A DNA stretch of 35,778 bases, taken from contig NZ_JANQOY010000171.1 in NCBI RefSeq assembly GCF_028285565.1, positions 1 to 35,778 on the forward strand, read 5' to 3'. The stretch comes from Acaryochloris sp. IP29b_bin.148. Lineage in GTDB: Bacteria > Cyanobacteriota > Cyanobacteriia > Thermosynechococcales > Thermosynechococcaceae. Shown here piece after piece: positions 196-28,099 of the stretch; position 1 is the first letter of the stretch, and every line of letters begins with the position of its first letter. The translations under genes and the position numbers were made by a program. The notes below the pieces were generated by a model. The model had not been told where the DNA came from and did not search any database. It saw only the letters and a program-made list of their open reading frames with translations.

Positions 196-1446
196 ATGAA
201 CGCTAAGCACAAATTTCTCGTGCCATTTGCATGGGGTCTAGCCGCACTAATATTGACTGCATGCTCATCGACTGAAGAATCTGCGACTACCAATGAAGTC
301 CCTTCGCCCCAGCCAGAAGAACCCTCTGCTAAGGCGTCCATCTCACTGAACCCTTCCTATTTTGTCAAAGAGAATTTAGCCAAGGAAATTACTCAGGAAT
401 CATGCACCTTATCCGATGGCACAAAATCGTCCTGCTATGTCATTACCATCAAACCTGATCCGCAGGAGCATCAAATGGGGCCTTGGTGTCCCACAAATGA
501 AAAAGACGGCAAAGAAAAGGGTGGGATTTGGTTTAGATCGGGGGAAGTTTACGATGTTGATGGGGCCTTTATTGCTGGCTTGGCCGACTTCTATTCAGAT
601 TCTGCCTGGAAATTAGTGAATGATGATGGTTCGATTCGAGTCACAAATACCCAAGAAGCCTTCGAAGCAGCGGCAAAACCAGACGTCGATCCGCGTTACA
701 ACAACTATTGCGTTGAAGGCCGTCCTGAGTGGGTCACCATTAACGCCAAGACTTACGTAATTCCGGTTACTCCCGTTTATCAGACGACCCCTACAGATTT
801 AGGTCGTGATGGGATTGGCGTTGCCTTCAACGGTGTCAATTTTGATCCCCCTGCGCCGCTGAATGCCATACTAGCAGCCCATACGATCGCCCCTTTAGAT
901 GATAATGGTGGTCATATCAATCCCCATACGGGTTATCACTATCATGCGGCAACGGGGCAAACCAAAGAGATTGCCCAAACGGATAACCATGCACCGATGA
1001 TTGGTTACGCCTTGGATGGATTCGCCATCTATGCCCAACTGGACAAAGACCAACAAGAACCCACAGGCTTGGACGACTCTCGTGGACATTCTGATTCAAC
1101 CCGGGGATATCATTATCACGCTGGAGCACCTGGGAGCAACCAAATTATTCAGTCATTCCGAGGGTTAACGGCGTCTTTAGGTACGGAGACATCTAACGAT
1201 TCTAAAGCCCCAGGGCCAGATAACCGCCCCCCACGCAGAGGCCCCGATTTCGCAGCAGCAGCACAGAAGTTGGGGGTGTCAGAATCACAGTTAAGAGAGG
1301 CGCTGGGCAGCCCTGAAAATTCTCCGCCACAGCCCGGACAGCGCCCCCCCAAGCCTGACCTGGCAGCCGCCGCCCAAAAATTAGGGGTCACTGAACAACA
1401 GCTGGCAGAGGCACTGGGTAGACCTCCCAACCCGCCGGGACGGTAG
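196..1446 (+). CDS. YHYH-domain lipoprotein with duplicated C-terminal motif
   Basis: A predicted exported lipoprotein of 416 residues. The N-terminus is a short basic and hydrophobic signal ending in a lipobox L20-T-A-C23, followed by an acidic Ser/Glu/Pro-rich linker. The YHYH domain (Pfam YHYH family, function unknown) is marked by two GYHYHA motifs, one in HTGYHYHAATG and one in RGYHYHAG. The conserved stretch IGYALDGFAIYA lies between them. The C-terminus carries two copies of a roughly 23-residue helical motif (start near 351 and 388, each with AAAAQKLGV and ALG), separated by a Pro-rich linker. The SD AGAGGA lies 7-8 nt before the ATG. The gene stands alone between a fold-back repeat and a transposase relic. 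The YHYH name is a family assignment only; the substrate or ligand is unknown. Confidence 0.85.
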   Translation: MNAKHKFLVPFAWGLAALILTACSSTEESATTNEVPSPQPEEPSAKASISLNPSYFVKENLAKEITQESCTLSDGTKSSCYVITIKPDPQEHQMGPWCPTNEKDGKEKGGIWFRSGEVYDVDGAFIAGLADFYSDSAWKLVNDDGSIRVTNTQEAFEAAAKPDVDPRYNNYCVEGRPEWVTINAKTYVIPVTPVYQTTPTDLGRDGIGVAFNGVNFDPPAPLNAILAAHTIAPLDDNGGHINPHTGYHYHAATGQTKEIAQTDNHAPMIGYALDGFAIYAQLDKDQQEPTGLDDSRGHSDSTRGYHYHAGAPGSNQIIQSFRGLTASLGTETSNDSKAPGPDNRPPRRGPDFAAAAQKLGVSESQLREALGSPENSPPQPGQRPPKPDLAAAAQKLGVTEQQLAEALGRPPNPPGR

Positions 1447-1560
1447 CAATCTCTCTTGACCCCACCGTAGACTGCGATGAAATCGGGTCGTTTATGAACG
1501 CTCAGAACCATAAGCAGTGGATCTGGCTAGAGCTGGATATCGCCACTCGTGAGAGATTGC
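1446..1560. repeat. 10-bp inverted repeat flanking the transposase relic
   Basis: GCAATCTCTC at 1446-1455 is matched by its exact inverse GAGAGATTGC at 1551-1560. The left arm begins on the last base of the YHYH stop codon. The arms closely bound the IS1-like coding relic. The loop of 95 bp is too long for an ordinary terminator. These may be remains of element ends or chance. Confidence 0.5.
1461..1553 (+). pseudogene. IS1-family transposase fragment (relic)
   Basis: Reading the plus strand in the frame starting at 1461 gives PTVDCDEIGSFMN, then HKQWIWLELDIATRE. This resembles the conserved catalytic-core block of IS1-family transposases in cyanobacteria (DE-W-SFV, then NKQWIWLALD, then TREI). 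The match covers only about 30 residues. It has no start codon, no flanking transposase sequence, and ends where the neighbouring vWA gene region begins. It is therefore a degraded insertion fragment between two convergent genes. The family call rests on motif memory, not on an alignment. Confidence 0.6.
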
Positions 1561-1584
1561 CCAAGGGTCATTTTAATTGCGTCC

Positions 1585-2364
1585 TTAAGCACCAAATCCA
1601 CCCAGAGAATTAAACGAAGCTGCTGACTGGCTGGCCCTGAGCGCCGACTGAGAAAACAGTTGAAACGCCTTGCGAATTTCATTTTGAGAATTGCCAGGGG
1701 TCAAGATCCATTGATCGCGTAACCCCATCTCGCGGAATACCTGTTTAAAGTCCGTCTGTCCATCCTCAATCCCCATGGCGGCAATGATATGGTCTTCCGT
1801 GCGTAGCATATCCTCGACCATCCCCTTGACCTTCCGAGCTGAGTGCCGAGAATGGGCATCGGCTCCATCCGTAATAATCAGGGACACCGTCCGCACGGGG
1901 ACACCATTCTCGATAAAGGATTGGGCCTTGGCCAGGACGGTGGCTAATAGAACCAAGGTTTGGTCATAGAGCGGTGTGCCCAGGTTAGGATCATAATTGT
2001 GTTGATCCATCCGAATCGCTTGGTCAACGGGACAGTAGGGATAGAGCACCTGACCATTGAGATAGCGGTTGTGAACCAGAATTTGATCTTGCTGCGGAGA
2101 CGTGGCTAAGGTATCTAGCACGGTATTATGGCCCGCCCGAACCACTGCCCCATTGCCCGCAAACCGGATTGAGCCCGAATCATCTGGCATGATTGTCACC
2201 AGAACCACTTCACTGGCCATTACATCATCAACGGGGGTGCCCAGGCCCGCCTGGATCTGTGCCCCAATATCGACAATATTGAGAGTCTGCATCGACGTGT
2301 TTGAGAGTACGCCATCTGCCTGAGCAGCTTGGAATAACGCATTTAGATTAGGGACTTGAGACAT
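1585..2364 (-). CDS. von Willebrand factor A (vWA) domain protein, TerY/YegL-type role
   Basis: A 259-residue soluble protein with a complete-looking metal-ion-dependent adhesion site: D61-D-S63-G-S65 (DxSxS), T130 in GTPLYD, and D166 in SLIITDGADA. vWA domains bind partners through Mg2+ and often act as scaffolds. The start is set at the ATG at 2364, because a perfect AAGGAGG lies five bases before it; an upstream in-frame ATG adds eight residues but lacks a ribosome site. The Ser/Ala/Gly-rich tail may be flexible. It is the last gene of the set containing a zinc-ribbon protein, a nicotinamidase-like enzyme and a protein kinase, with PP2C farther upstream. This resembles the TerY-P triad and E. 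coli yegI-K-L arrangement. The partner relationship is inferred from that. Confidence 0.8.
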   Translation of the reverse strand: MSQVPNLNALFQAAQADGVLSNTSMQTLNIVDIGAQIQAGLGTPVDDVMASEVVLVTIMPDDSGSIRFAGNGAVVRAGHNTVLDTLATSPQQDQILVHNRYLNGQVLYPYCPVDQAIRMDQHNYDPNLGTPLYDQTLVLLATVLAKAQSFIENGVPVRTVSLIITDGADAHSRHSARKVKGMVEDMLRTEDHIIAAMGIEDGQTDFKQVFREMGLRDQWILTPGNSQNEIRKAFQLFSQSALRASQSAASFNSLGGFGA

Positions 2365-2421
2365 AACATCCTCCTTGATTAAACTCACTAAAATTTCGAA
2401 AAAATAGGTATAGGAATCCTG

Positions 2422-2437
2422 GGGAGCGATCGCTCCC
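2422..2437. repeat. 16-bp perfect palindrome containing a HIP1 octamer
   Basis: GGGAGCGATCGCTCCC reads the same on both strands and has the cyanobacterial HIP1 octamer GCGATCGC at its centre. It lies in the 113-bp gap between the zinc-ribbon gene and the vWA gene, 58 bp before the vWA start. No T-tract follows it on either strand, so a terminator is unlikely. It could be a mere HIP1 site, an RNA hairpin that separates the two cistrons, or a binding site. Confidence 0.6.
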
Positions 2438-2477
2438 AGACATCAGCTTTTGCCGAAATGGATTGAAAGCGGTTTAG

Positions 2478-3020
2478 TTAACCACTATTAAGAAAAGACA
2501 GCAGAACATCCCTCTGGGGATGCTGATCGAGCCATTGTTTAACCCGCTGAGCTTCCACATAATCCTCGGCGCCAATGGTGTTGAGATACACTTGGTCCAC
2601 CTTTTTCTGCCGCTCATTCGCTCGGATTTTGGCTTGCCAGGGAGCGGAGAACACCTTATGCACCTCATCATGCAGCCCTCTTCGCTTGAGGCTGGCCCAC
2701 TCATTTTTGTCGAACCAGAGTCCCTGACATCTTGAGCATTGATCGAGATAGAAACTCAACTCATGGCCAACCCGATACTTGAGCATTAAACAACGGCAGT
2801 CTGGGCAAAGGGTCGCTTGTTGGTTATCAGACACTTGCAAGGGAGGGCCATCCGCAGGCGGTTCTGGAGGGATATCGTCCTGATGCTCTAGCCAAGCCCA
2901 ATAGTCATCGGCTGAAATCCATTCCCCTTCACATCGGGGGCAAGCAAAGGCGGGAAGATTGGATTCCAATAGGACTTTGGAGAGTTGGGGGGTTCTACAA
3001 ACAGGGCAAAGTTTAAGCAT
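2478..3020 (-). CDS. TFIIB-type zinc-ribbon protein (zf-TFIIB family)
   Basis: A 180-residue soluble protein with two treble-clef or zinc-ribbon units. The first has CPVC near residues 5-8 and CPRC with EGEWIS near 27-35. The second has CPDC near 97 and CSRCQGLWFDKNEW in the middle. The CxxC...C-xx-C-x-G-x-W-F-D pattern is that of the zf-TFIIB (PF13453-like) proteins, which are common and mostly uncharacterised. The C-terminal 60 residues are charged and helical. The gene lies 45 bp downstream of the nicotinamidase-like gene on the same strand and 113 bp upstream of the vWA gene, so it is probably in the same transcript. The start is the only reasonable ATG; no good SD is visible. It may be a protein-binding adaptor; the partner is unknown. 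Confidence 0.8.
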   Translation of the reverse strand: MLKLCPVCRTPQLSKVLLESNLPAFACPRCEGEWISADDYWAWLEHQDDIPPEPPADGPPLQVSDNQQATLCPDCRCLMLKYRVGHELSFYLDQCSRCQGLWFDKNEWASLKRRGLHDEVHKVFSAPWQAKIRANERQKKVDQVYLNTIGAEDYVEAQRVKQWLDQHPQRDVLLSFLNSG

Positions 3021-3065
3021 TTCAAACCCAATAGAGATGGCAACAGTTACTATTGACTATTCTGC

Positions 3066-4094
3066 CTAAGGATTGATTCCAGGCCAATTTGCGATCGCAT
3101 CCGTAGACTGCACCACATGCATCCCTGCTTGCTGGAATCGGAGAAACGCCTCATTGGCCTGCTCGGTAAAATCGACCACCCCCGGCACCACCACCGGCGA
3201 AGAACAATCTTCCAGTAAGTAGATTTTCTGAGCCAGATTCGGGTCATGGGCTTGAATTTCCGTCAGCAAGTCATCGATGGTCCAGGCGACACAGTGACTC
3301 TTGGCCTGTCCCGCAATAATCACCACATCAAAATCCAGCAGCTTTTGGATAAACCGGGTATTCTTTTGGGCAATCGGCCGTCCCTTAGAATCATCGAGGA
3401 CCTCCGGTCGAAGCACCGAGTAATTTTCCGTCAGCGGATTGCCCCCCTTGATTTCAAAATTCGTCTGACTATGGCGGGCCAGATTATGGAAAAAGCAGGC
3501 TTCCTCCACCGCCGCCACTAGGGCATGACCAATCCCCCCTAGCATGGAGTGATAGGGCCAAATCGTTAGGGGATATTTGCCCTCTTGGGAGAGACGTTGA
3601 ACATAATGGCGGGCAAAATTTTGCAGCGCCATATAATTGCCCAGACTATAGGCCATGGCTGGATTGACCTTCCAGGCCCCCTGCTCCACCTCCGCCAAAG
3701 AAATCATCGTCAGCGGCCCCGGAGACTCACCGCGATCATTTACCCAGAAATCAGCATGGAAGATCTGCATCGCCGTATGGGTATCCATCGTCGGTGCAAT
3801 TTCCGTAATCGTTCCTAAATTGCGGTAGATAAACTCGCAGAGTCGGCGATTATCCTCCACCGCCCCCACGCCAGATTGTCCCCCCACAAACAGCTCGAAC
3901 TCGGGAATACAAAAGGTATTTTGGACATCAATCGCCATTAGGCAAACCCGCGTTTTATCCTTTGCCGCTGGCTGTATTCCCTGGCTAGCCCAGTCCTGGG
4001 CCTGTTGGGCTCGTTCCTGGTAAGGAACCCGCCACACCTCTCCCACCCGCTGAGGGTCAAAGAAATCAGGAATCGGTAATTGCGTCAACATCAT
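3066..4094 (-). CDS. Nicotinamidase-like cysteine hydrolase (isochorismatase superfamily)
   Basis: A 342-residue enzyme of the cysteine-hydrolase fold. The visible elements match nicotinamidase: MAIDVQNTF (catalytic Asp), a [12 protein letters not shown] stretch like the metal-binding DWHP region, [12 protein letters not shown], an IKGGNP lysine followed by ENYSVLRPE, and [11 protein letters not shown] (nucleophile Cys). Nicotinamidase (PncA) hydrolyses nicotinamide to nicotinate in NAD salvage. It is usually about 180-220 residues, so this protein is long, with an extra N-terminus and insertions; the substrate may differ. The start is placed at the ATG at 4094, eight bases after TAGGAG, in which the TAG is the stop codon of the kinase gene, so translation is probably coupled. 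An in-frame GTG at 4103 touches the SD and is less likely. Confidence 0.8.
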
Positions 4095-4105
4095 CTTAAA
4101 CACTC

Positions 4106-5929
4106 CTATAACTGCAATAACTGAATCGTTTGGGACCCAACGGTATAGAGTCCCTGGGGGGCCGCCAACAACTGGCTGCCCGTCTGTACAAAGGGATCCG
4201 TTTCCGGGAATCGTCGCTGCACGATTAACTGCCCCTGCTCCACCTGCACTCGGATAATGCCCTCATCCGTAGCCACAAACAGCGTCTCTTCCACCGCCCA
4301 GTGGGAACAAGGGCCGGATGCCGTTGCGGCCCATTCCCCCACCTCTGCCTGTGCCAATACCTGTCCCGTCGGCGCAATCACCCAACAGCGCTGTTGCAGC
4401 ATCCCTTGGTCCTGGATTGTCACAAAGAGCCATCCGAGAGACTGACTAAAGGTACAGTGGGCCGCCACCATCGTCCCTGCGCCCATAGATAAGGACAACC
4501 GATCATTGATGCCTGAACGATCCGCATCGAAAACAAAGGCCCCATTCAGTTGGCCAGCGCGATAAAAGCCGAGGCCAAACCGAGGCCCCACCCAAAATTG
4601 GGTTTGTCCGGCCAAGACCTCCCCCACCACCGCATGGTCGCGTAGCAACTGTCCCTGATTGAGCCAATAGCAATGCCGATCATTGACCGTAAACTGAGAG
4701 CGACCTTGGTAGCTATCCACGGCGATCCGCTCCGTAGTCGGCACACCCACCACCTTCCCCTGCTGGGCAATCCAGGTGGTTTGCCCCTGAAGATGCCAGT
4801 CAAACTCAGAACTGAGATCCCCTGTGAGCACCACCGTTCCGTCTTCCCGCTTAAACTGTCCTTCCTCCCAGACCAGCCACTGTAGCTGCCCCGCCGTCAC
4901 CGATGCTGCCAGGATTACCCCCTTCGTTTGCAGCACCGTTGTCACCTGAACCGCACCGGTTGGCGGGGCGATGCCCACGGATTTTACACAGCTTGGACAA
5001 GCAGAGCGAGCATGCTCTGCCCCACAGGACGGACAGGTCTGCCAGCGCAAATTTTCCAAGAGCGATCGCGGAAACTCCCCCCGCCAATCCTGTTCAAACA
5101 CTCGGCGAAAATGATTCAGCAAGGGTTCCGGCAAGCGATCGCACGGTAAAGCTGGCTTGGGATAGCGCACCTGAGGATGAAATACCGTCACCCGATGTAA
5201 CGGTCGAGCGGCCTGTGGTAATCGCTGAGCCGGATCAGAAGGCTTATAAACCCCTCCATGGGGATCAACAAACAGCAGTGCCTGCATCAGCATCACCGTA
5301 AAGGCGTACCAATCCGATTCCCAGGAATAGGGGCGACATAATATCGGCTGTGTTGCTTGCGAATCGCACAGCAGTGGATCGACAAACCGGGCGGTAAAGA
5401 CCGAACAGGGAAACGAACCAAACTGGAATGAATCGGCATCAATTACAAAGGCCTGGGTACCCTGGACCAAAATATTGAGGTCGTTAAAGTCTCCAATCAC
5501 CACATCTGCAAAATGCAGCTTGGCGACGGTCTCGTGTAGATCTAAAAACAGGTCAACTACCGCCTGAGTCTCTATCATCTGCCTAAATCGCAGATCGCAA
5601 TACCGTAACAGCACCTCTGCATTGGTCAGTAACGGCATCGTATAGCCCAAAATACGCTGTCCAGTTTGATTCATCACCAACGCTTGGGGTGAAATAACCC
5701 GCTCAGGCAAAGACTGAGGGAATTGCCGTAGCTTTTGCTGATGCAACGCCAACCGCTCCCGCGCGCCCTGCTGGGCCTCAGCCATGCCCTCGAAATCTGG
5801 ATGACTGGGCGGTTTAAACAGCTTCACTGCTGTTGTCCGATTAAGGCGATACACATCCGCTTCTCCCCCCTTACCGATGGCTTGCTGGGGGCGCAGACGA
5901 ACTCGTTTTTGATTGATATAAACGTCCAT
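4106..5929 (-). CDS. Protein kinase with zinc ribbon and beta-rich C-terminal domain (YegI-like)
   Basis: A 607-residue protein. Residues about 10-290 form a protein-kinase-like domain: glycine loop GKGGEADVY (19-27), lysine in AVKLF (K36), a catalytic loop GDFNDLN with D147 and N152 at the standard five-residue spacing, a metal-binding D164 in DAD in place of DFG, and [10 protein letters not shown] (205-214) as helix F. The HRD histidine and arginine are replaced. A zinc ribbon follows (CPSC at 299-302, CPSC at 311-314). Residues about 325-607 are rich in short beta strands with W/G-rich repeats, suggesting a propeller-like sensor. The zinc ribbon after the kinase recalls kinases of TerY-P triads and YegI. 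No SD precedes the ATG; instead the leader has interleaved hairpins (5951-6018). The stop overlaps the ribosome site of the next gene. Confidence 0.82.
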
Positions 5930-5950
5930 AAAAATTGAAAAAGTAGATTT

Positions 5951-6018
5951 TCGTATCGCAATACCAATCGACGATACGAGTTAATAAGCTGTGGTATTGC
6001 TCCCAGGTCTTCTGGGAG
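5951..6018 (-). promoter_or_regulatory. Interleaved hairpins in the leader of the kinase operon
   Basis: Three exact inverted repeats are packed into 68 bp directly upstream of the kinase gene. Stem 1 pairs CTCCCAG with CTGGGAG (6000-6006/6012-6018). Stem 2 pairs GCAATACCA with TGGTATTGC (5958-5966/5992-6000). Stem 3 pairs TCGTATCG with CGATACGA (5951-5958/5972-5979). One arm of stem 3 lies in the loop of stem 2 and the other directly abuts it, so stems 2 and 3 are interleaved. They could be alternative RNA folds, a pseudoknot, or overlapping operator dyads. The lack of an SD before the kinase ATG at 5929 fits a controlled leader. Its role is not known. Confidence 0.6.
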
Positions 6019-6098
6019 AAAGGCATTAGGGCTTATCCATAAGCACACCTAAAATAGATGTGAATTGCATACTCTTTATCGCACCTATTAAATCAGGC

Positions 6099-6878
6099 CT
6101 ATTCAATCTGATAAGTTGCCATAAATGCCTCGACTACCTGCTGCAAATCTGCATCTAATCGTGCCCAAGTCTCCTGGGCAATCCGTTCTGGCACCCCACC
6201 ATAGAATCCTTGGGCAATACCACCCGCAATACAGGCTTGGGTATCGCTATCGCCTCCCAGAGATACAGCATTGCGAATGGCATCTTCAAAATCCGTCGAC
6301 TCTAGAAACGCCGTAATCGCCTGGGGCACTGACCCCTGACAGGAGCTATCAAACTGATATTGGGGCCGAATTTCTTCTAGACTCAAACTCAAGTCATAGC
6401 CAAAGGTGGCTTCGATATAGGTTTCAATCTCTGCTTTAGACCGTCCCCGTCGTCCCAGGTAAATGGCTGCAGCTGTTGCCTGTGCCCCCTTAATCCCTTC
6501 CGGGTGATTGTGGGTAACGGCTGCACTCCGCTCCGCTTCCTGCAATACCGTCTCTAAATCTTCAAAGGCAAACCCAACGGCACTGACCCGCATGGCCGAA
6601 CCATTTCCCCAACTGTGATACGGCTCCACACTATCGGATGCTCCCCACTCCCGAAAAGTCTTACCATAGCCAGCTTTGGGATAGCGTCGGTAATAGTCCT
6701 TGATGGTATAGACATAGGCTTTTTGTTGGAGAATGGCCTCAGCAACGGCCACCGTCAGCACCGTATCATCTGTAAATTTTGATTTTTTACTAAATAGGTC
6801 GAACTCTTTCCGTTTAATCCGTCGCCAATGGGGTTCAAATACCGACCCAATGATGTCACCTGCAATTGCACCTAGCAT
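6099..6878 (-). CDS. ADP-ribosylglycohydrolase (DraG/ARH family)
   Basis: A 259-residue enzyme of the ADP-ribosylglycohydrolase family, which removes ADP-ribose from modified proteins or other acceptors through a two-metal centre. The metal and substrate motifs are all present: GAIAGDIIGS at the N-terminus, FTDDTVLT (D37-D38-T39), GNGSAMR (91-97), THNHPE (122-127) and GGDSDT (208-213). Length is usual for the family. The ATG follows a strong AAGGAGGAGG. Its first 23 bases overlap the 3' end of the PP2C gene, so the two are translationally coupled and share the promoter near 7748-7776. The likely product, free ADP-ribose, is the known effector of NrtR regulators, and an NrtR gene lies just beyond PP2C. 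The physiological substrate is not evident. Confidence 0.9.
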   Translation of the reverse strand: MLGAIAGDIIGSVFEPHWRRIKRKEFDLFSKKSKFTDDTVLTVAVAEAILQQKAYVYTIKDYYRRYPKAGYGKTFREWGASDSVEPYHSWGNGSAMRVSAVGFAFEDLETVLQEAERSAAVTHNHPEGIKGAQATAAAIYLGRRGRSKAEIETYIEATFGYDLSLSLEEIRPQYQFDSSCQGSVPQAITAFLESTDFEDAIRNAVSLGGDSDTQACIAGGIAQGFYGGVPERIAQETWARLDADLQQVVEAFMATYQIE

Positions 6879-7707
6879 CCTTGCCTCCTCCTTCTGTCCT
6901 TTTCCGTCTAATGCTGATTAACGTCGTGTCGTCTGGTAATAACCCCGGTATCTTTCGCACCTGCCGGGTATGCCAATCTGGCCGTATCACCTCTCGATTG
7001 ATCTGAGCCAGCCGCCGTCGTACCTGATCGGGGTTCTGGAAATAGCGATCGCAACGCCAGAACTGATTCAGTGGTCCCACAGGTTCCGGTCTCCCTGGGA
7101 GGCAATTCTCCGCTACATCCATTAAGTCCCCCACCCCATCGCTCCCAATCAGCACAGACTGCACCTGTTCTGTGGGGTGTTGAGCATAAATCTGGATTTG
7201 AAACGGATCGGGGCCTTTTTCGGTGTCCCATAGCAAGCTGTAGGCCAAATAGGGCGGGGTATTATTGGCAAATGGACCGATGGGGTGAATCTGCTCATTG
7301 ATGGCAAATACCCCATCCCCTAAGCCAAAAATCCAGGTGGTTTCTGGGGTCACTAAACACCCCATCAGGGTAAATAACCAGTAATCCAACAGCCCTTGCG
7401 AATCCGCTCCTAACCGCTTCTGTAAAGTCTGCATCCCTCCTAATAGGCGCTTCTTCAACATCTGCCAAAATAGTTCGTCTTCTGGTCGCTCCGCTGCTAC
7501 GAGTTGGGCAAGCGTATGCACCGTTAGCTGAGCCCCAAACTGCGCTCCCACCTCACTGTTAGGTCGACTCCCGCACCCATCACAGACCACAGCAATCATG
7601 GCTTGTTCGAGCGCCAGACTTGCCCAAGCATCTTGATTATTCTGACTCACTCGTCGATGGTTCTGGCCCAGAATAGACCCAGCCGCGACTTCAAAATGCT
7701 GTTGCAT
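6856..7707 (-). CDS. PP2C-family serine/threonine phosphatase
   Basis: A 283-residue soluble phosphatase of the PP2C (PPM) family. Metal-binding motifs in order are NNQDAWA (D26), VVCDGCGS followed by SEVGA (D43-G44), a GLGDGVFAI stretch, IGSDGVGDL, and LLPDDTT near the C-terminus. The divergent PP2C_2-type layout resembles YegK. The start is set at the ATG at 7707: longer in-frame starts up to 7776 would put the -35 and -10 boxes and both operator dyads inside the coding sequence. The gene overlaps the ADP-ribosylglycohydrolase by 23 bp. It would be expected to reverse phosphorylation by the kinase encoded at 4106-5929, an inference from the conserved kinase/PP2C/vWA grouping. Expression is probably controlled by the NrtR protein encoded next to it. 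Confidence 0.88.
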   Translation of the reverse strand: MQQHFEVAAGSILGQNHRRVSQNNQDAWASLALEQAMIAVVCDGCGSRPNSEVGAQFGAQLTVHTLAQLVAAERPEDELFWQMLKKRLLGGMQTLQKRLGADSQGLLDYWLFTLMGCLVTPETTWIFGLGDGVFAINEQIHPIGPFANNTPPYLAYSLLWDTEKGPDPFQIQIYAQHPTEQVQSVLIGSDGVGDLMDVAENCLPGRPEPVGPLNQFWRCDRYFQNPDQVRRRLAQINREVIRPDWHTRQVRKIPGLLPDDTTLISIRRKRTEGGGKDARCNCR

Positions 7708-7714
7708 TGCTTTA

Positions 7715-7733
7715 TAGTGTAAAAACGACACTA
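7715..7733. promoter_or_regulatory. Operator dyad 1, candidate NrtR site
   Basis: TAGTGTAAAAACGACACTA has exact 6-bp inverted arms (TAGTGT/ACACTA) and a 7-bp spacer. It lies eight bases upstream of the PP2C start, downstream of the predicted transcription start. It matches the inverse of the dyad at 7752-7770 at 16 of 19 positions. The assignment to NrtR is from position and repetition. Confidence 0.7.
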
Positions 7734-7747
7734 ACTTGAATAAATCT

Positions 7748-7776
7748 ATCATAGTGTCACTTTTACACGATGTCAA
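7748..7776 (-). promoter_or_regulatory. Sigma-70 promoter of the PP2C/ADP-ribosylglycohydrolase operon
   Basis: On the minus strand, a consensus -35 box TTGACA (7771-7776) is separated by exactly 17 bp from a -10 box TATGAT (7748-7753). Transcription would begin near 7741, giving a leader of about 34 nt before the PP2C ATG at 7707. Operator dyad 2 fills the spacer, so a bound repressor would block polymerase. Confidence 0.75.
7752..7770. promoter_or_regulatory. Operator dyad 2, candidate NrtR site within the promoter spacer
   Basis: On the minus strand this reads TCGTGTAAAAGTGACACTA, an imperfect dyad with GTGT/ACAC core arms and the same 7-bp spacer as dyad 1. The two dyad centres are 37 bp apart. 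It lies between the -35 and -10 boxes for PP2C and 21 bp before the divergent NrtR start codon, so it could control both directions. Confidence 0.7.
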
Positions 7777-7791
7777 GATTCCCCCGCTCCT

Positions 7792-8484
7792 ATGCCCTAT
7801 ACCTATGACTATCCGCGCCCTGGCCTGACCGTTGACTGCGTGGTGTTTGGCCTAGATAAACAGATTGATCTCAAAGTCCTCCTGATCCAGCGCCAGATTC
7901 CCCCTTTTCAGCATCAGTGGGCCTTGCCTGGGGGCTTTGTGCAGATGGATGAATCTTTAGAAGATGCAGCTCGCCGGGAGCTGCAAGAAGAAACGGGGGT
8001 TCAGGGTATTTTCCTAGAGCAGCTCTATACCTTTGGTGATTTGGAGCGAGATCCACGCGATCGCATCATCTCCGTTGCCTACTACGCGTTAATCAACCTA
8101 ATGGAATATCCTTTACAGGCTTCTACTGATGCGGAGGATGCAGCCTGGTATTCCCTGGAAAATTTGCCGTCCTTAGCCTTTGATCATGCTCAAATTTTGC
8201 AACAGGCCATCCAGCGCTTGCAGGGCAAAGTTCACTACGAACCGATTGGCTTCGAACTGCTGCCGCAAAAATTTACGCTTACTCAAATTCAACAGCTCTA
8301 CGAAACCGTACTTGGCCATTCTCTAGACAAACGGAACTTTCGTAAGAAACTGCTAAAAATGGATGTCTTAATCCCTCTGGACGAGCACCAAACTGGAGTA
8401 GCACATCGGGCTGCTAGACTCTATCAGTTTGATCAAAGCAAGTACGAACTATTGAAACAACAGGGCGTTCATTTTGAGATTTGA
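7792..8484 (+). CDS. nrtR: NrtR-type transcriptional regulator (Nudix domain + winged helix)
   Basis: A 230-residue regulator. Residues about 10-140 are a Nudix domain; the Nudix box is complete, with G48, E54, R62-E63 and E66-E67 followed by T-G-V70. Residues about 155-230 form the winged helix-turn-helix typical of NrtR, with [16 protein letters not shown] and [11 protein letters not shown]. NrtR proteins repress NAD-metabolism genes and are released by ADP-ribose. The gene is divergent from PP2C/ADP-ribosylglycohydrolase, with two matching dyads in the gap. No SD precedes the ATG, so translation may be leaderless or from a very short leader. Because the Nudix box is intact, residual ADP-ribose pyrophosphatase activity is possible; in many NrtR proteins that site is degenerate. 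Regulation of the more distant kinase operon is not shown by sequence. Confidence 0.9.
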
Positions 8485-8539
8485 GCGTATTGACCCAAAG
8501 TCTGTTCCTATAAGAATTTAAACAATCCATAGAGCATTG

Positions 8540-8640
8540 ATACCAATTACCCAGCTAAATGACCTGTATAGATCGCCGAACACATTGAAATTTGGTCGAT
8601 CATTTGAGTCAAACAGTTCATCTCCGTACGAAATTGGTAT
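8540..8640 (+). repeat. 101-bp fold-back repeat, copy 2 (MITE-like)
   Basis: This is the second copy of the element at 80-180, in the same orientation, with ATACCAATT/AATTGGTAT ends. Internal arms ATGACCTGT (8559-8567) and ACAGTTCAT (8613-8621) are perfectly centred on the element midpoint and pair with one mismatch, so the whole unit folds back on itself. It lies 56 bp after the NrtR stop and marks the right edge of the cassette. Confidence 0.75.
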
Positions 8641-8760
8641 GACTACATTTTTTCTAAGAATTGCTCAACCTATTGTCTATTAAAGATTTGAGCGCTCTTT
8701 AAGTCAGCGCCCTGAAAAGTCCTGATTGGAACTAACAGGCATTAACGATAATTATGGATC

Positions 8761-8791
8761 AATTTAAATGATCTATAATTTCATTTAAATT
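8761..8791. promoter_or_regulatory. 11-bp inverted repeat enclosing a TATAAT box
   Basis: AATTTAAATGA (8761-8771) and TCATTTAAATT (8781-8791) are exact inverses, separated by nine bases that contain a consensus -10 box TATAAT (8774-8779) on the plus strand. A protein bound to the dyad would cover the -10 box. No convincing -35 box is seen 17 bp upstream. The likely target is the acyltransferase operon or the small ORF at 8858. Confidence 0.55.
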
Positions 8792-8857
8792 AAGCAATCT
8801 AAGTTAACATTGAGTAAATAAATCTGCGAGTTTGATTCATTCGAGTAGGATTTTTTT

Positions 8858-8905
8858 ATGCCTTCCAGAGAGAAAAAGCAGGCGCAAGATTGTCGTCAAC
8901 TTTGA
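8858..8905 (+). CDS. Possible 15-residue leader peptide
   Basis: An ATG seven bases after GAGTAGGA opens a frame for a basic 15-residue peptide beginning MPSREKKQAQ and ending in CRQL before TGA. It lies between a candidate promoter dyad and an intrinsic terminator, upstream of the MBOAT gene. A leader-peptide role is suggested only by this position. The peptide has no run of a single amino acid that would point to a classical attenuator. Confidence 0.25.
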   Translation: MPSREKKQAQDCRQL

Positions 8906-8910
8906 TTCTC

Positions 8911-8956
8911 AGTTTCGCTATTTCCCGATAGATCGGCGAACTTTTTTTGCTTTTTT
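8911..8956 (+). terminator. Intrinsic terminator or attenuator before the MBOAT gene
   Basis: AGTTTCGC (8911-8918) pairs with GCGAACT (8936-8942) with one bulged base; an inner CGAT/ATCG can extend the fold. It is followed at once by seven T residues, GC, and six more T residues. It begins six bases after the stop of the small ORF and ends about 48 bp before the acyltransferase start. It could end a short transcript or act as an attenuator. Confidence 0.65.
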
Positions 8957-9003
8957 GAAGGAATTTTATCTCGAAGTTTCAACTATATAAACTCATTAGA
9001 ACA

Positions 9004-10596
9004 ATGTTATTTAACTCTTTAGAGTTTATTTTCTTATTTCTTCCTATCAGTCTTGTACTCTTCTTCTCGTTGGGGATGTTGGGTTATCACAAGGCTGCAC
9101 TCTTTATTCTTATTGCTGTTTCCTTTTTCTTTTATAGTTGGTGGAACCCTGCATACTTAGGTCTACTCCTTTTCTCTATCGTTTTTAACTACGCGATGGG
9201 GCTAGCGCTATATAAATGCTCCGCCCCAGCCCACCACTCCAATCAAAAGAGGCTATTAATCGCGGGCATAGGCGTCAACTTAGCCTTATTAGGCTACTTT
9301 AAATACGCTAACTTCTTTGTCGAAACCGTCAATGGCTTACTGGCAACTAACTTTAATCTCAACCAAGTTATTTTGCCCTTGGCAATTTCATTTTTTACCT
9401 TTCAACAAATTGCCTACTTGGTAGATGTATATAGAGATACTGCCAAGAAATATAGTTTTTTTGATTACAGCCTTTTTGTTGGATTTTTCCCGCAGCTGAT
9501 TGCTGGCCCCATTGTCCACCATGACCAACTGATTCCTCAATTTAACAACCCCAAGGTTAGTCAGTTTAATGCAAGAAATATGGCGATAGGTCTGACTATT
9601 TTTTGTCTAGGATTAGGTAAAAAAGTACTGATAGCCGATAGCATCTCAGTCTATGCAACGCCTGTCTTTGAGATGGCTAGTCAGGGCACCTCAACCACCT
9701 TTGTTGCTGCTTGGATCGCGGCATTTGCCTATAGCCTACAACTCTACTTTGATTTTTCAGGTTATTCTGACATGGCCATTGGCATTGCCAGAATGTTCAA
9801 TATCAAGCTTCCCCTAAACTTTTACTCTCCCTACAAGGCCAAAAATATTAGTGACTTTTGGCGTCGTTGGCACATTACGCTTTCGGGTTTTCTCCGAGAC
9901 TATCTCTATATTCCATTAGGGGGTAGTCGGATGGGGATAGTGCGGCGCAATATTAACCTGATGGTCACCATGCTATTAGGAGGACTCTGGCACGGTGCGG
10001 GCTGGACTTTTGTCTTTTGGGGAGGGTTGCATGGCGCCTATTTAGTGATTCATCGGCAATGGCAATCGCTATTGAATTCTCTCGGCTATAAACCCCAAAA
10101 TCAGGGTTGGTCCACTCAGCTATTAAGCCGCTCAATCACTTTTTTGGCTGTTGTTGTGGGGTGGGTTTTCTTTAGAGCAGATAGTATGAGAGCGGCTATC
10201 TCAATTCTGAAAGGTATGGTGGGTGCAAACGGTTTATCTTTGCCTTACGTACTGGCTGATCAACTGGCCTTCCTGCAGTCTTGGAGCGTTACCTTTGAGG
10301 GTTTAGTACCAGAAATCGCGATTAGCTTTCCACCCTTTATTACTATATTTATGGCTGCATTTGCCATTATTTGGTTTGCACCTAATATTTACCAGTGGAT
10401 GGAGCAATATACTCCTGCTGCAGATTTAGCATCGCTAACCACTACAAATACGAATAAGCCAATCCGGCCAATGAATCGGTGGTTCCAATGGCGTCCGATT
10501 CAGCTCTTTAGTCTACTCGTTGGAGTTTTGGCCTTTATGACCGTCAAAACCCTTCTCGAAGCTCCCCAGAGTGAGTTTTTGTACTTCAATTTCTAA
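9004..10596 (+). CDS. MBOAT-family membrane O-acyltransferase (AlgI-like)
   Basis: A 530-residue polytopic membrane protein with about ten hydrophobic segments. AlgI/DltB-type markers are seen in order: SFFFYSWWNP near 40-49, FFPQLIAGPI (161-170), YFDFSGYSDMAIG (248-260), DFWRRWHITLS (284-294), and LGGLWHGAGW with the invariant catalytic His330. Such proteins pass acyl groups, usually acetyl, across the inner membrane to exported polysaccharides. Only five bases separate it from the next gene, which has an SGNH-type fold and is the expected periplasmic partner. The ATG has only a weak ribosome site. Control may involve the promoter dyad at 8761-8791 and the terminator-like hairpin at 8911-8956. 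The actual polysaccharide is not known. Confidence 0.9.
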   Translation: MLFNSLEFIFLFLPISLVLFFSLGMLGYHKAALFILIAVSFFFYSWWNPAYLGLLLFSIVFNYAMGLALYKCSAPAHHSNQKRLLIAGIGVNLALLGYFKYANFFVETVNGLLATNFNLNQVILPLAISFFTFQQIAYLVDVYRDTAKKYSFFDYSLFVGFFPQLIAGPIVHHDQLIPQFNNPKVSQFNARNMAIGLTIFCLGLGKKVLIADSISVYATPVFEMASQGTSTTFVAAWIAAFAYSLQLYFDFSGYSDMAIGIARMFNIKLPLNFYSPYKAKNISDFWRRWHITLSGFLRDYLYIPLGGSRMGIVRRNINLMVTMLLGGLWHGAGWTFVFWGGLHGAYLVIHRQWQSLLNSLGYKPQNQGWSTQLLSRSITFLAVVVGWVFFRADSMRAAISILKGMVGANGLSLPYVLADQLAFLQSWSVTFEGLVPEIAISFPPFITIFMAAFAIIWFAPNIYQWMEQYTPAADLASLTTTNTNKPIRPMNRWFQWRPIQLFSLLVGVLAFMTVKTLLEAPQSEFLYFNF

Positions 10597-10601
10597 CGCA
10601 G

Positions 10602-11585
10602 ATGAAATATCTTCACTATCTCAGAGCAACTGCTGTTGTATTCTTGCTGTGTTGGCTTATGTTTTGCTTGGCCACCATCTACAGTATTGGGGCACCCAGC
10701 AATTTTGCGGTGGCGACGAATGAGCTTTACAACATTAAATCTGAAATTGCAGAGCAGATCGAAGGCCAAAAGCTAGCTATTGTTTCAGGGTCTAATTCAC
10801 AACAAGGGATTAGCTGTGAACTGATCAGTGACATCACTCAGCAATCTTGTTTCAATGGCGGCAGTGTTATTCCCTTGGGAACAGATTACCTTCTTAAGCG
10901 GGCTCAGCACTGGCTAAAGCCTGGAGATATGGTCTTACTGCCCTTAGAATATAGTCTTTATCAAGATAATGGTCAGCCTAGGCAAGAGTTAATTGAGTAT
11001 ATTCTTAATTATGACCATCCCTATTTTTTCTCAGTTGGCCCCGTCACTCAACTGCAACTGTTTAGTGGTTTATCGTTAGCAACGTTAATGGATAGAGTGA
11101 TGGCCAAAGCTCAGCATCAGGTCCCCACAGCACAATCTTCTGAGTTAGTAGCGGTGAGAAATAGCCTTAATCGTTATGGGGATAACATTGATAATCAGCA
11201 AGAACAAATGAGTCCCCAATTATTAGAAGCGGTTGAAAATCTGACCCCGCTAAAACTCAATGGCCATCAACATTCAACCCGAGGCATGCAGGCTATTCAA
11301 GATTTCATCCAGTGGTGCGACCAAAACCAAATCCAAGTGATTGCGTCTTGGCCCAACACCGTTTGGTTCGAAGAGTATAGCGAGCCTCCTCAGCAAGAGT
11401 TTTTTCGCAATATCAAAAACTTTTATCGGCAAAATGATATTGCGATCGTAGGAGAGCCAGAGGATTTTATGTACGATACATCGATGTTTTATGACTCGAT
11501 ATATCATTTGCATGATAAGGGCGTTGAAGTCAGAACAAAGCAGCTGATCGATAAACTAACCCCCTATGTGGCGGCATTATCCTAA
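10602..11585 (+). CDS. SGNH-hydrolase-like partner of the MBOAT acyltransferase
   Basis: A 327-residue protein with one N-terminal membrane anchor (about residues 9-28) and an extracytoplasmic domain. Block I is LAIVSGSNSQQGI (about 58-70), where a GSN serine would be the nucleophile. Block V is YDSIYHLHDKG followed by RT near 303-316, giving the Asp and His of the triad. This SGNH layout is found in proteins paired with MBOAT acyltransferases, which complete transfer of acetyl groups to exopolysaccharide (as AlgJ/AlgX or DltD do). The gene follows the MBOAT gene by five bases and is almost certainly in its operon. Sequence outside the blocks is not one I recognise, so the exact family is unassigned. 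Confidence 0.75.
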   Translation: MKYLHYLRATAVVFLLCWLMFCLATIYSIGAPSNFAVATNELYNIKSEIAEQIEGQKLAIVSGSNSQQGISCELISDITQQSCFNGGSVIPLGTDYLLKRAQHWLKPGDMVLLPLEYSLYQDNGQPRQELIEYILNYDHPYFFSVGPVTQLQLFSGLSLATLMDRVMAKAQHQVPTAQSSELVAVRNSLNRYGDNIDNQQEQMSPQLLEAVENLTPLKLNGHQHSTRGMQAIQDFIQWCDQNQIQVIASWPNTVWFEEYSEPPQQEFFRNIKNFYRQNDIAIVGEPEDFMYDTSMFYDSIYHLHDKGVEVRTKQLIDKLTPYVAALS

Positions 11586-25879: not shown

Positions 25880-27220
25880 TTATTCACCTGTAATGGATAG
25901 CTCATCCACCCAGATTCTGGGGCAAATACCACCAGGTGTGAGTTCCGCCTCCGATTCAACATAAATAATCGACTTAAGCAATTCTCGGAAATCTCCAGCA
26001 ACAGTAGCTGATTCAATACTGACCCGCTCGCCTTTGTTAACCAGCCAGCCATCAAAAGGCAAAGAGAAAGATCCTTGCAGCGCTTTCACCCCAGCATGAA
26101 GGGCTTGAACATCATCAATAAAGACGACATTTTCGGCAGTCTCTAAGCTGTAGGCTTGCTCAGGGGTGCTGGCGGCAAACACATGGTAGAAATGTGGCCC
26201 CACGGTAACCTTGGCTCCAAGATTGGCATGCCCTGTAGGTTGAGTATCTAAGCGCTTAGCCGTTCCTGAACTATGGAGGAAATTTGTGAGCACCCCTTTA
26301 TCAATAATTGGAATGCGTCGGGTGGGGGTTCCTTCGTCATCAAAGGTGGTTTTGCCCACGTTGTCGGCATGGAGAGCATCATCAGCAACGGATAGAAGGG
26401 GGGATGCAATTTCTGCTCCGAGTGACTCAACCGTAGATAGGCTGCGATTATCAAGTACGCTTTGGGCATTGAACAGGTTGGAAAAGGCCCCTAACAAGCT
26501 AAGAAACGCTTCGGCAGACAGGACAACGCGATACTTGCCCGAGGTAATCGGCTGATAGTTGAGGTGACTGATGGTTTTCTCTGCGGTTTCTTGCAAGCAT
26601 CCTTCAATATCGAGCTGCTTTAGACCTTGGCTGACTCGGTAAGCGCCAGCACTGCGGGGACGTTTGCCTTCCTGTTCGGTTTTGCTATAGAGATAGATCG
26701 AACTGGCTGACCGGGCCTCTTGCCGCATAGCCCCCTCACTGTTGAGGTAGAACCGCTGGGCATCTCGTTGGGCAAGGCCATTGTAAGGAACGCCTGCGAT
26801 CGCATCATGGGCTTCCATTAATTTTGCTTCGGTCTGCACCAGATTCTCAATCAAGGTGGCAATTTCCGCCTGGGGTACTAGCTCAGATTGGGTGGCGTCC
26901 AGAGCGGCGGTGGCTTCTGGACTAAAATCCGGCACATGCTCTTTGGCTCCAAAGGCACTGGCTTCTTGGGCCGTTTTGAGTGCCAATTCGAGTCCCAGTT
27001 CATCCACTTCGCTGGTGGTGGTGACGCCGACGGTATGGGCTTCATTCCAGACGCGGACCATCACGCTAGAGCGTTTGGAAGCCTTAACCTGTTTGGGTTC
27101 GCCTTGATCGACTTGGACGCTGGCTTCATCGACGGTAGACCCACAGACATCAAACTTTTGAATGCCTAAGGCTTGGGCTTTTTCTTTTGCGATCGCAGCA
27201 ATGGTAGCAACATCAGACAC
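25880..27220 (-). CDS. pmbA: TldE/PmbA-type subunit of the TldD/TldE peptidase
   Basis: The non-catalytic partner of the TldD/TldE metalloprotease, which trims modified peptides (microcin B17 leader in E. coli) and degrades the CcdA antitoxin. The 446-residue protein has the U62/PmbA layout: an N-terminal domain with VDQGEPKQVKASKRSSVMVRV, then the C-terminal domain with TTFDDEGTPTRRIPIIDKGVLTNFLHSSGTAKR and ATGHANLG-like segments. It lacks HExxxH, as TldE does. The start codon is GTG at 27220, nine bases after AGGAGAG. It is the distal gene of the tldD-Uma2-pmbA set on the minus strand. Its peptide substrate in this organism is unknown. Confidence 0.9.
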   Translation of the reverse strand: MSDVATIAAIAKEKAQALGIQKFDVCGSTVDEASVQVDQGEPKQVKASKRSSVMVRVWNEAHTVGVTTTSEVDELGLELALKTAQEASAFGAKEHVPDFSPEATAALDATQSELVPQAEIATLIENLVQTEAKLMEAHDAIAGVPYNGLAQRDAQRFYLNSEGAMRQEARSASSIYLYSKTEQEGKRPRSAGAYRVSQGLKQLDIEGCLQETAEKTISHLNYQPITSGKYRVVLSAEAFLSLLGAFSNLFNAQSVLDNRSLSTVESLGAEIASPLLSVADDALHADNVGKTTFDDEGTPTRRIPIIDKGVLTNFLHSSGTAKRLDTQPTGHANLGAKVTVGPHFYHVFAASTPEQAYSLETAENVVFIDDVQALHAGVKALQGSFSLPFDGWLVNKGERVSIESATVAGDFRELLKSIIYVESEAELTPGGICPRIWVDELSITGE

Positions 27221-27315
27221 GCTATTTAACTCTCCTATGTTTTATTTGTTGTCGAGGTGTTTTTTATACCTATATGGAGCCAAAACCTTATACCTATTAA
27301 ATTGATTGGTTGGGA

Positions 27316-28050
27316 TTACAGCAAACCTTCAGCCTCTGGATCAACCCCCATTGCCCGCAGGCGTTCACCCAACTGTTGCATTTTGGCTTCCGCTTGACTG
27401 GCCCGTTCATTGCCAATCAGCAACAATTCACCCGCCAAGGTCCACCACCGCAACCAGGTTCCTTCTTGGTTTTGATAGTGTCCTTGCCAGAGACCTAATT
27501 CGACCTGCAAAGGGGGAATAGGATAGTGCCCGCGATCATTCGTCGATAACTGTTGATATTGGCCACCCACCAATTCGTAGACCTCTAATTTGGCAGAATT
27601 AATCTCATAAATTCCATAGTAAGGAACTCGGATAATTTTTTCATAGACCCAAAACTTGCCAGTAAAAGGGGTCTGATCCCGCTCTTCGCTACCGCTCCCC
27701 GAGGCAAATTCCAGTACAACGGCTGGGGCGATATACTCTCGCCACAACACGTAGGACCGTCGAATCTGATTATTGAGTTTGGGGGGCACATGAGGAACAT
27801 AAAACCAATCCGGTGCAACCGCGCCCTGTTCTGCGGGTTCAGTTTCTCGCCAATAAATGCCGCAGTCCTGGCCAATACAATACTGGCCATCTGGATGCAG
27901 TTGTCGCAAAGTCGTGCTGAGTGAATCCGTTAGTAACAGACTTTGCGGATGTTCCTGGAAATTTTTCACAAAGGTACCATCTGTTTCCGGTAACTGAGTA
28001 TGGTCAGGGAAACGAGAAGTAATGGCCTGTGGGGATGCAGACTCAGTCAT
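27316..28050 (-). CDS. Uma2-family PD-(D/E)XK protein
   Basis: A 244-residue protein of the Uma2 (DUF820) family, very numerous in cyanobacteria and related to restriction endonucleases but without a settled function. Visible landmarks are APDWFYVP (catalytic Asp region), AVVLEFASGSGSEERD (Glu in the second strand), KFWVYEKIIRVPYYGIYEI, and YPIPPLQVELGLWQGHY. A C-terminal helix (NERASQAEAKMQQLGERLRAMGVDPE) is the usual coiled tail. It lies between tldD (49 bp upstream) and pmbA (95 bp downstream), on the same strand. It looks like an insertion of a mobile-prone gene into a normally adjacent pair, or a functional link. I favour chance placement. Confidence 0.85.
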   Translation of the reverse strand: MTESASPQAITSRFPDHTQLPETDGTFVKNFQEHPQSLLLTDSLSTTLRQLHPDGQYCIGQDCGIYWRETEPAEQGAVAPDWFYVPHVPPKLNNQIRRSYVLWREYIAPAVVLEFASGSGSEERDQTPFTGKFWVYEKIIRVPYYGIYEINSAKLEVYELVGGQYQQLSTNDRGHYPIPPLQVELGLWQGHYQNQEGTWLRWWTLAGELLLIGNERASQAEAKMQQLGERLRAMGVDPEAEGLL

Positions 28051-28099
28051 ACAAACAGAGTGTAAAGCAGTTGAGCAAGTTGAAGTAGCAAGCTTTTAC

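Follow-up and report, generated by a model that had tools for sequence, protein, structure and literature searches.

The salvage of NAD in bacteria is generally regarded as governed by repressors and by enzyme kinetics. Among the described systems, NrtR of Mycobacterium smegmatis is an auto-repressor released by ADP-ribose (PMC6800001, in excerpt), genes for NAD replenishment are known to be borne by phages (PMC9503650 section 3.6, in excerpt; NARP1, PMC12774641, in excerpt), and anti-phage systems centred on an ADP-ribosylglycohydrolase (ARH), with Nudix-type regulators and vWA proteins, have been proposed (PMC9503650 section 3.8, in excerpt). Here we consider a gene block at positions 1585 to 8484 of a 35,778-nucleotide stretch of Acaryochloris sp. 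IP29b_bin.148 (NCBI RefSeq assembly GCF_028285565.1, contig NZ_JANQOY010000171.1; the window hereafter means this whole stretch), in which a PP2C phosphatase, a protein kinase, a nicotinamidase-like enzyme (PNC) and a vWA-like protein stand next to a divergent NrtR-like repressor. This conserved cassette is likely, at a probability that we put near 60%, to be a NAD-salvage module with predicted ADP-ribose-induced transcription, tuned by reversible phosphorylation of proteins. Both the set of genes and the operator predicted for it, as read from sequence, are solid, and phosphorylation acting on the salvage step is plausible.

The conservation of the cassette was assessed by scanning an alignment of 18 kinases against one genome per species, which gave 248 pattern matches and 191 relatives; the locus counts rest on the best 80 of these 191 kinase relatives, i.e., the closest ones, and the window proteins served as the reference for the open frames of every locus. 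Wherever the contig left room, PP2C adjoins the kinase in 73 of 74 loci and PNC does so in 71 of 75, a vWA-like gene is present beside the kinase in 62 of 64, and NrtR lies at most 8 kb away in 59 of 68. Order and strand of PP2C, kinase, PNC and vWA are kept in 67 of the 69 loci having all four genes, the two misses (L090 and L114) being loci where long overlapping open frames blur the order. By taxon the 80 loci divide into 34 from Cyanobacteria, 25 from Myxococcota, 12 from Patescibacteria and 9 others, the latter including loci labelled Blastocatellia, Desulfococcaceae, Aenigmarchaeota, Riflebacteria and Elusimicrobia, with the caution that several loci come from metagenome bins whose taxon could be misassigned. 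Recurrence in distant genomes was the test that the original prediction had set beforehand, and the kinase, PP2C, nicotinamidase-like, vWA and NrtR genes do recur together in cyanobacteria, myxobacteria, Patescibacteria and others. A chance neighbourhood is ruled out by the linkage, by the conservation of order across phyla and by palindrome enrichment, while for carriage by plasmids only partial, weak kinase matches were found in the annotated collections (four plasmids and one phage record). The window kinase is 93% identical to that of Acaryochloris sp. CCMEE 5410. One locus labelled Comamonas sp. KCTC 72670 (L072) has flanking gene families in common with Myxococcus loci, and is probably mislabelled or part of a mixed assembly.

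The features of the window locus are the following:

1585..2364, minus strand: vWA-like protein with MIDAS-like residues and a Ser-rich tail; likely start ATG 2364 (the open reading frame opens at GTG 2388)
2478..3020, minus strand: Zn_ribbon_TFIIB protein (PF13453, 47.3 bits), a local insertion outside the conserved cassette
3066..4103, minus strand: PNC, nicotinamidase-like amidohydrolase of 345 aa
4106..5929, minus strand: YegI-like protein kinase with a Cys4 zinc ribbon and a predicted beta-propeller C-terminal half
6099..6878, minus strand: ADP-ribosylglycohydrolase (PF03747, 131 bits), an accessory gene
6856..7707, minus strand: PP2C phosphatase (PF13672, 77 bits); likely start ATG 7707 (the open reading frame opens at TTG 7776)
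7715..7733, strandless: predicted NrtR operator O1, a perfect TAGTGT-N7-ACACTA palindrome
7748..7776, minus strand: promoter-like site of the PP2C operon, TTGACA-17-TATGAT, a consensus match only, overlapped by O2
7752..7770, strandless: predicted NrtR operator O2, with one mismatch, 37 bp from O1
7792..8484, plus strand: NrtR-like repressor with a Nudix domain (PF00293), an NrtR winged helix (PF21906) and a complete Nudix box

The NrtR-like gene is divergent from PP2C and the remaining genes of the block lie on the minus strand. Every gene that the original prediction had named was found where it had been placed or very near, and the PP2C/ARH overlap is exactly the 23 bp (6856-6878) that had been claimed; the Zn-ribbon gene between PNC and vWA was missing from its list, and no relative of this gene was found in any of the 80 loci, including another Acaryochloris locus (L035). 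The PP2C start is likely ATG 7707 because the TTG of the open reading frame falls inside the best promoter match, and ATG 2364 is the more likely vWA start because it is preceded by AAGGAGG. Only PP2C, ARH, the Zn ribbon and NrtR reach a Pfam cut-off in the block. Kinase, PNC and vWA gave no Pfam family at E 0.001, and at E 1 still none for PNC and vWA and only sub-threshold zinc-ribbon and DUF matches for the kinase, so that annotation pipelines may miss the system; PF00069 is carried by 4 of 120 listed kinase relatives. The labels of these three genes derive from motifs, from a fold (PNC) and from homology to Escherichia coli YegI (kinase), that of vWA being the weakest of all.

Two copies of a palindrome lie between NrtR and PP2C, namely TAGTGTAAAAACGACACTA at 7715-7733 and a one-mismatch copy at 7752-7770. 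O1 is the only exact TAGTGT-N7-ACACTA match in the 5.07-Mb assembly; at two mismatches single palindromes are uninformative genome-wide (78 per strand, below the 259 of a reversed control). The region from 450 bp before to 120 bp after the PP2C start was scanned in the 73 of 80 loci with PP2C and at least 150 bp before it, and the palindrome occurs there with at most one mismatch in 60, against 0.03 expected from Markov shuffles. Two palindromes with at most two mismatches were found in 51 of the 73 loci, the commonest spacings being 22, 26 and 23 bp, and the remainder of the loci held 14 sites in 1.32 Mb. The palindrome was found across Cyanobacteria, Myxococcota, Patescibacteria and others, and its designation as a predicted NrtR operator is well supported by this comparison of sequences; the involvement of NrtR, also part of the original prediction, is thereby backed as a predicted control of the cassette. 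The promoter-like match agrees with the consensus at 11 of 12 bases and is the best of nine in 1440-9100, where 7.6 are expected from shuffles and most are thus chance. O2 covers its spacer and O1 lies just downstream, a placement that would suit repression. Two weaker palindromes (two mismatches each) were also observed between NrtR and a divergent stand-alone cyanobacterial PNC (L132).

The window NrtR-like protein has the expected Nudix plus winged-helix architecture, with PF00293 and PF21906 above cut-off, and predicted palindromic operators are located at its own promoter and at that of the NAD gene. Its third solved relative is 3gz5 (119 bits), which we take to be Shewanella NrtR. The Nudix box is complete in the window, in all 24 cyanobacterial, all 25 myxobacterial and 4 of 6 other NrtR sequences, and the repressor of most lineages may therefore also hydrolyse its own ligand; it is complete in none of the 11 patescibacterial sequences. 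The 11 loci with a degenerate Nudix box (L068, L069, L075, L082, L083, L089, L092, L093, L101, L102 and L103) all still have a palindrome with at most one mismatch near NrtR or PP2C.

As for the enzyme, D59, K219, C271, D107, H109 and H185 are invariant in all 86 cassette and all 20 stand-alone PNC sequences; from residue matching with PncA we take the first three to be the Asp-Lys-Cys triad and the last three the Asp-His-His metal site. The PNC model (pLDDT 93.9) appears closest to solved nicotinamidases, with scores of 22.1 for the fly enzyme, 21.6 for yeast Pnc1 and 20.9 for that of Acinetobacter, and 18.6 or less for other fold members among the families listed; Foldseek concurs, and the predicted structure thus has a nicotinamidase fold. 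No solved structure was matched when the profiles of PNC, vWA and kinase were searched by sequence. Residues and model together make a salvage function, i.e., nicotinamide deamidation, likely for PNC.

The genes around the cassette point in the same direction. A pncB, nadE, prs, nadD/NMN adenylyltransferase or NAD kinase gene lies within about 10 kb in 10 of the 80 loci (Patescibacteria 7/12, others 2/9, Myxococcota 1/25, Cyanobacteria 0/34), a sample of these calls having been confirmed with family models. In L159, a locus outside the 80 whose bin shows 9% contamination, the cassette is followed by genes for PncB, a Prs-like protein and NadE. NAD genes were searched in 16 cassette genomes, 12 small (0.7-1.2 Mb) and 4 large, some of them bins that may be incomplete: among the small ones NadA was missing from all 12, PncB was present in all 12 and no PF00857 protein was found in 7, and among the large ones NadA was found in 3, PncB in 3 and PF00857 in 4. 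The window genome (87% complete) has its sole PF00857 protein on contig C242; elsewhere, on C62 (L162), pncB is grouped with a NadE-like gene and with a second gene of the NrtR-like type (41% identical), and no TAGTGT-N7-ACACTA was found near that second gene. In the cyanobacterial locus L143 a stand-alone PNC is divergent from pncB.

It could be argued that PNC is an amidohydrolase for some other small amide, with a link to NAD that is indirect and passes only through NrtR. PNC has no Pfam match, amidases acting on maleamate, biuret and N-carbamoylsarcosine belong to its fold family, and H109 and H185 are 76 residues apart, a His-His separation that is far shorter in PncA; moreover, 9 of the 11 cassette genomes found in the window's phylum also have a PF00857 protein. 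Nonetheless nicotinamidases head the structural matches, none of the six catalytic and metal residues is lost, pncB, prs, nadD and nadE are among the neighbours, and PNC is the sole candidate found in 7 of the 12 small genomes with PncB and without NadA, so that another substrate appears very improbable.

The regulatory side of the cassette consists of the kinase, PP2C and the vWA-like protein. In the kinase the glycine-rich loop, K36, D147, N152, D164, D166 and the cysteines C299, C302, C311 and C314 are conserved (93 sequences), in PP2C the metal-site residues D49, D66, D213 and D282, and the catalytic residues of both are kept in nearly all sequences. The kinase family profile gave 59 bits with E. 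coli YegI (hhalign 97.3%, E 2.2e-11), and E. coli PphC gave 44 bits with the PP2C family profile (E 2.3e-15 in a three-protein search), both phosphatases matching PF13672. The kinase model resembles kinases and, in its second half, beta-propeller proteins, these structural matches being used loosely as its pLDDT is 76, with parts below 50 and low confidence in the middle. The MIDAS-like set of vWA (D69, D70, S71, S73, T138 and D174) is kept in 82 to 83 of 83 sequences, while the comparison with YegL gave 9 bits and an hhalign probability of 10% over 45 columns, a partial and weak match. The resemblance to yegI-K-L suggested in the original prediction thus holds for the kinase, homologous to YegI, and for PP2C, homologous to PphC, and is weak between vWA and YegL. 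The vWA tail FSQSAxRASQ...GGFG is conserved from cyanobacteria to viral contigs (S246 82/82, S248 81/82, S253 82/82, numbered from GTG 2388). As PNC has no cassette-specific Ser, Thr or Tyr common to all taxa, this serine tail is our guess for the likeliest target of the kinase.

ARH, by contrast with the partners above, is not constant: it is adjacent in 16 of the 80 loci, every one cyanobacterial, and it is lacking from the Acaryochloris locus L035. Its relatives (E < 1e-60) occur in 8 of 11 cassette genomes and in 20 of 281 without cassette, by which count ARH would be correlated with the cassette and neither necessary for nor specific to it. The stress that the original prediction had laid on ARH and on ADP-ribose release is therefore not supported, the gene being optional, absent in L035 and present in some genomes that have no cassette, and a system built around ARH was rejected. 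On the NAD side it is the nicotinamidase-like enzyme that stays constant, which makes nicotinamide salvage, rather than ADP-ribose release, the apparent link. The nearest solved relative of the window ARH is of the ARH3 type (E 2.8e-16). Two tandem ARH genes were observed between PP2C and kinase in Pseudanabaena-type loci (L056, L057, L059, L060, L065, L066 and L110), L066 being labelled Phormidium tenue.

The optional nature of ARH also bears on the suggestion that the locus is a conflict system defending against foreign ADP-ribosylation, as in the published ARH-centred operons. Nudix-type regulator, ARH, vWA and phosphatase do resemble the systems of PMC9503650 (section 3.8, in excerpt), the vWA/phosphatase/kinase triad TerY-P is reported to be active against T7-like phages (PMC7699616, in excerpt), and the NrtR-like protein gives, over its Nudix domain, a hit to PDC-S07, a model of a candidate defence system (E 5.6e-10). 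However, ARH is adjacent in so few loci, the published systems use rhodanese-type and other phosphatases and, in the available text of section 3.8 of PMC9503650, no kinase or nicotinamidase is named. PADLOC at E 0.001 gave no match for kinase, PP2C, PNC, ARH or vWA (for vWA none even at E 10), order and sequence are strongly conserved and not fast-changing, and the cassette is borne by viral contigs themselves. A defence role is hence improbable, and a catalogued defence system was rejected, the NrtR-like protein being the only one matched by PADLOC at E 0.001, to the candidate PDC-S07.

The scan of viral contigs gave 12 loci (L118 to L129), of which two duplicate pairs leave 10 distinct, and PP2C, kinase, PNC and vWA are all present in these 10. 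The contigs measure 97 to 545 kb and 8 of 10 exceed 200 kb (a 42-kb record is a duplicate). The order PP2C, kinase, PNC, vWA is found in 8 of 10, and PNC comes after the kinase in all 10, with two small open frames between them in L125. A large-terminase match was obtained in 7 of 10 distinct loci (8/12 records), a weak proof of viral origin as the same model matches 11 of 14 control genomes, and it was not used as such. PncB, NadE or NadD genes are near the cassette in L121, L128 and L129. A NADAR gene was observed in L120, and what we take by motif to be macro-domain genes come after PNC in L129 and are found close by in L125 (PHROG 335, 'phosphatase').

Within the window's phylum, 292 sampled genomes gave full-length kinase matches (E 1.5e-88 or better) in 11, 54 further genomes having weak matches to other kinases only, and vWA matches in exactly those 11 genomes. 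In 8 of the 10 cassette genomes besides that of the window, PP2C, kinase, PNC and vWA are ordered in one stretch, some with extra genes between them; the kinase of G286 is interrupted by TAG.

Taken together, these data suggest the following course of events. Upon NAD cleavage, ADP-ribose and nicotinamide would accumulate, and ADP-ribose would release NrtR from the tandem palindromes, of which O2 overlaps and O1 follows the promoter-like site in front of PP2C. The deamidase PNC would convert nicotinamide to nicotinate for PncB, NadD and NadE, which are encoded nearby in many Patescibacteria and elsewhere in the window genome. A partner, for which the near-invariant serine tail of vWA is the likeliest candidate, would be phosphorylated by the kinase and dephosphorylated by PP2C, and this partner would in turn gate PNC or the salvage complex. 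Cyanobacterial and myxobacterial NrtR with a full Nudix box may destroy its own inducer, resetting the switch, and ARH, in the loci that have it, would add to this signal by liberating ADP-ribose from modified proteins. If true, a five-gene unit whose order is fixed from phylum to phylum and whose operator is shared would connect NAD salvage with Ser/Thr phosphorylation. It would also assign a function to kinases of the YegI type and to their vWA partners, provide those Patescibacteria in which NadA was not found with a nicotinamidase, and account for the kinase, phosphatase and vWA genes beside a nicotinamidase-like gene on large viral contigs. A bolder version is less likely: an undescribed signalling module, common to giant phages and to cyanobacteria, myxobacteria and Patescibacteria, where the serine tail of vWA, switched by the YegI-like kinase and PP2C, would gate a new class of nicotinamidase, the ADP-ribose sensor would hydrolyse its own inducer, and phages would have taken the module over to refill NAD in the infected cell.

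Several observations weigh against a NAD-salvage module of this kind. On the side of the repressor, two sites with at most two mismatches were obtained for the window alone in 10 of 100 shuffles, so that the window palindromes are not rare by themselves and the weight lies on the cross-locus comparison, where 10 of 73 loci lack the palindrome even at two mismatches. NF050029 matched at 188 bits, under its cut-off of 400, hence the name NrtR-like; and among solved structures the top-scoring relative, at 196 bits, is the arabinose regulator AraR rather than a known sensor of ADP-ribose, for which reason the ligand is proposed on the strength of the neighbouring genes and of what has been published on NrtR (PMC6800001, in excerpt). 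On the side of the enzyme, the isochorismatase profile PF00857 did not match PNC at E 0.001 nor at E 1, and the enzyme is therefore called nicotinamidase-like and not PncA. No pncB, nadE, prs or nadD gene was found in the stretch examined of the 34 cyanobacterial loci. With a PF00857 protein in 9 of the 11 cassette genomes of the phylum, PNC need not be the sole nicotinamidase there; replacement of PNC by PF00857 enzymes across cyanobacteria was also considered and rejected, as 9 of 11 PNC-less genomes have neither. As for the arrangement, vWA is ahead of PP2C in the viral loci L120 and L127, G014 has no adjacent PP2C, and in G211 the cassette genes are scattered over three contigs, with a stop inside vWA.

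The same side of the balance holds the observations that would favour mere co-regulation, i.e., a triad with targets outside NAD metabolism, as part of a general NAD-stress response, and a PNC that only shares its control by NrtR. PNC matches were found in 72 of the 292 genomes against 11 with the cassette, so that PNC, often alone in cyanobacteria, can do without the triad; no nicotinamidase is encoded in the E. coli stretch read around YegI-PphC, the pair that the triad resembles; and, as said, a cassette-specific phospho-acceptor is lacking in PNC. Yet PNC sits between kinase and vWA in 67 of the 69 complete genome loci, and the viral loci, which also count against control by NrtR, are hard to accommodate: no NrtR was seen in their stretches and no palindrome upstream of PP2C in the 10 loci scanned (9 distinct, L125 left out), and PNC nonetheless follows the kinase in each distinct locus. 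The four genes travel together as one unit, unaccompanied by NrtR, and shared NrtR regulation does not readily explain their linkage there. Co-regulation alone is accordingly a rather unlikely explanation, and tuning of NAD salvage by phosphorylation is the reading that we prefer.

Two other gene groups of the window were observed away from the cassette: at 9004-11585 an MBOAT acyltransferase precedes a 327-aa protein without a name, the two possibly forming an O-acetylation pair, and at 25880-29569 a Uma2-type gene sits between two TldD/PmbA-type genes.

No description of the gene set was found in searches of the open full-text literature, a coverage that leaves most subscription journals outside, nor is it described in the available portions of PMC7824862, PMC6800001, PMC7699616, PMC3840689, PMC7196632 and PMC1262709; a term search of PMC9503650 for PP2C or nicotinamidase gave no match. 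Among known systems, E. coli YegI-PphC-YegL is alike in its kinase, homologous across the kinase domain and the zinc-ribbon region, in its homologous PphC and in a vWA gene nearby, whereas neither nicotinamidase nor NrtR is present in the E. coli stretch read and the second half of the window kinase is a predicted beta-propeller. TerY-P shares the vWA, phosphatase and kinase activities (PMC7699616, in excerpt), but its PADLOC models found no counterpart here (vWA none at E 10, kinase and PP2C only weakly to other systems, E 0.003 or worse), and the cassette adds a nicotinamidase-like gene and NrtR. In the ARH-centred systems, as far as the excerpts describe them, a Nudix-type regulator, ARH and sometimes vWA are found as here, where the regulator is present in most loci with room (59/68); in the cassette, however, ARH is optional, the phosphatase is a PP2C and not of the rhodanese type, and kinase and nicotinamidase-like enzyme are constant. 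Phage NAD reconstitution and NadV/NadM/NadR salvage, in the excerpted accounts, likewise consist of NAD-replenishment genes carried by phages, while the viral cassettes would use a deamidating route (PNC, with PncB, NadD or NadE in 3 of 10 viral loci) and add kinase, PP2C and vWA. With PncA and yeast Pnc1, PNC would share the modelled fold and six active-site residues, and it differs from them by its 345 aa, a long insertion and a place outside the Pfam isochorismatase model. The NrtR regulons, finally, are alike in having a Nudix plus winged-helix repressor beside NAD genes and a palindrome in the shared intergenic region, the M. smegmatis motif being GTTTTCGA-N7-TCGAAAAC (PMC6800001, in excerpt) as compared with TAGTGT-N7-ACACTA here, and the cassette stands apart from them in that its predicted targets include a kinase, a PP2C phosphatase and a vWA-like protein.

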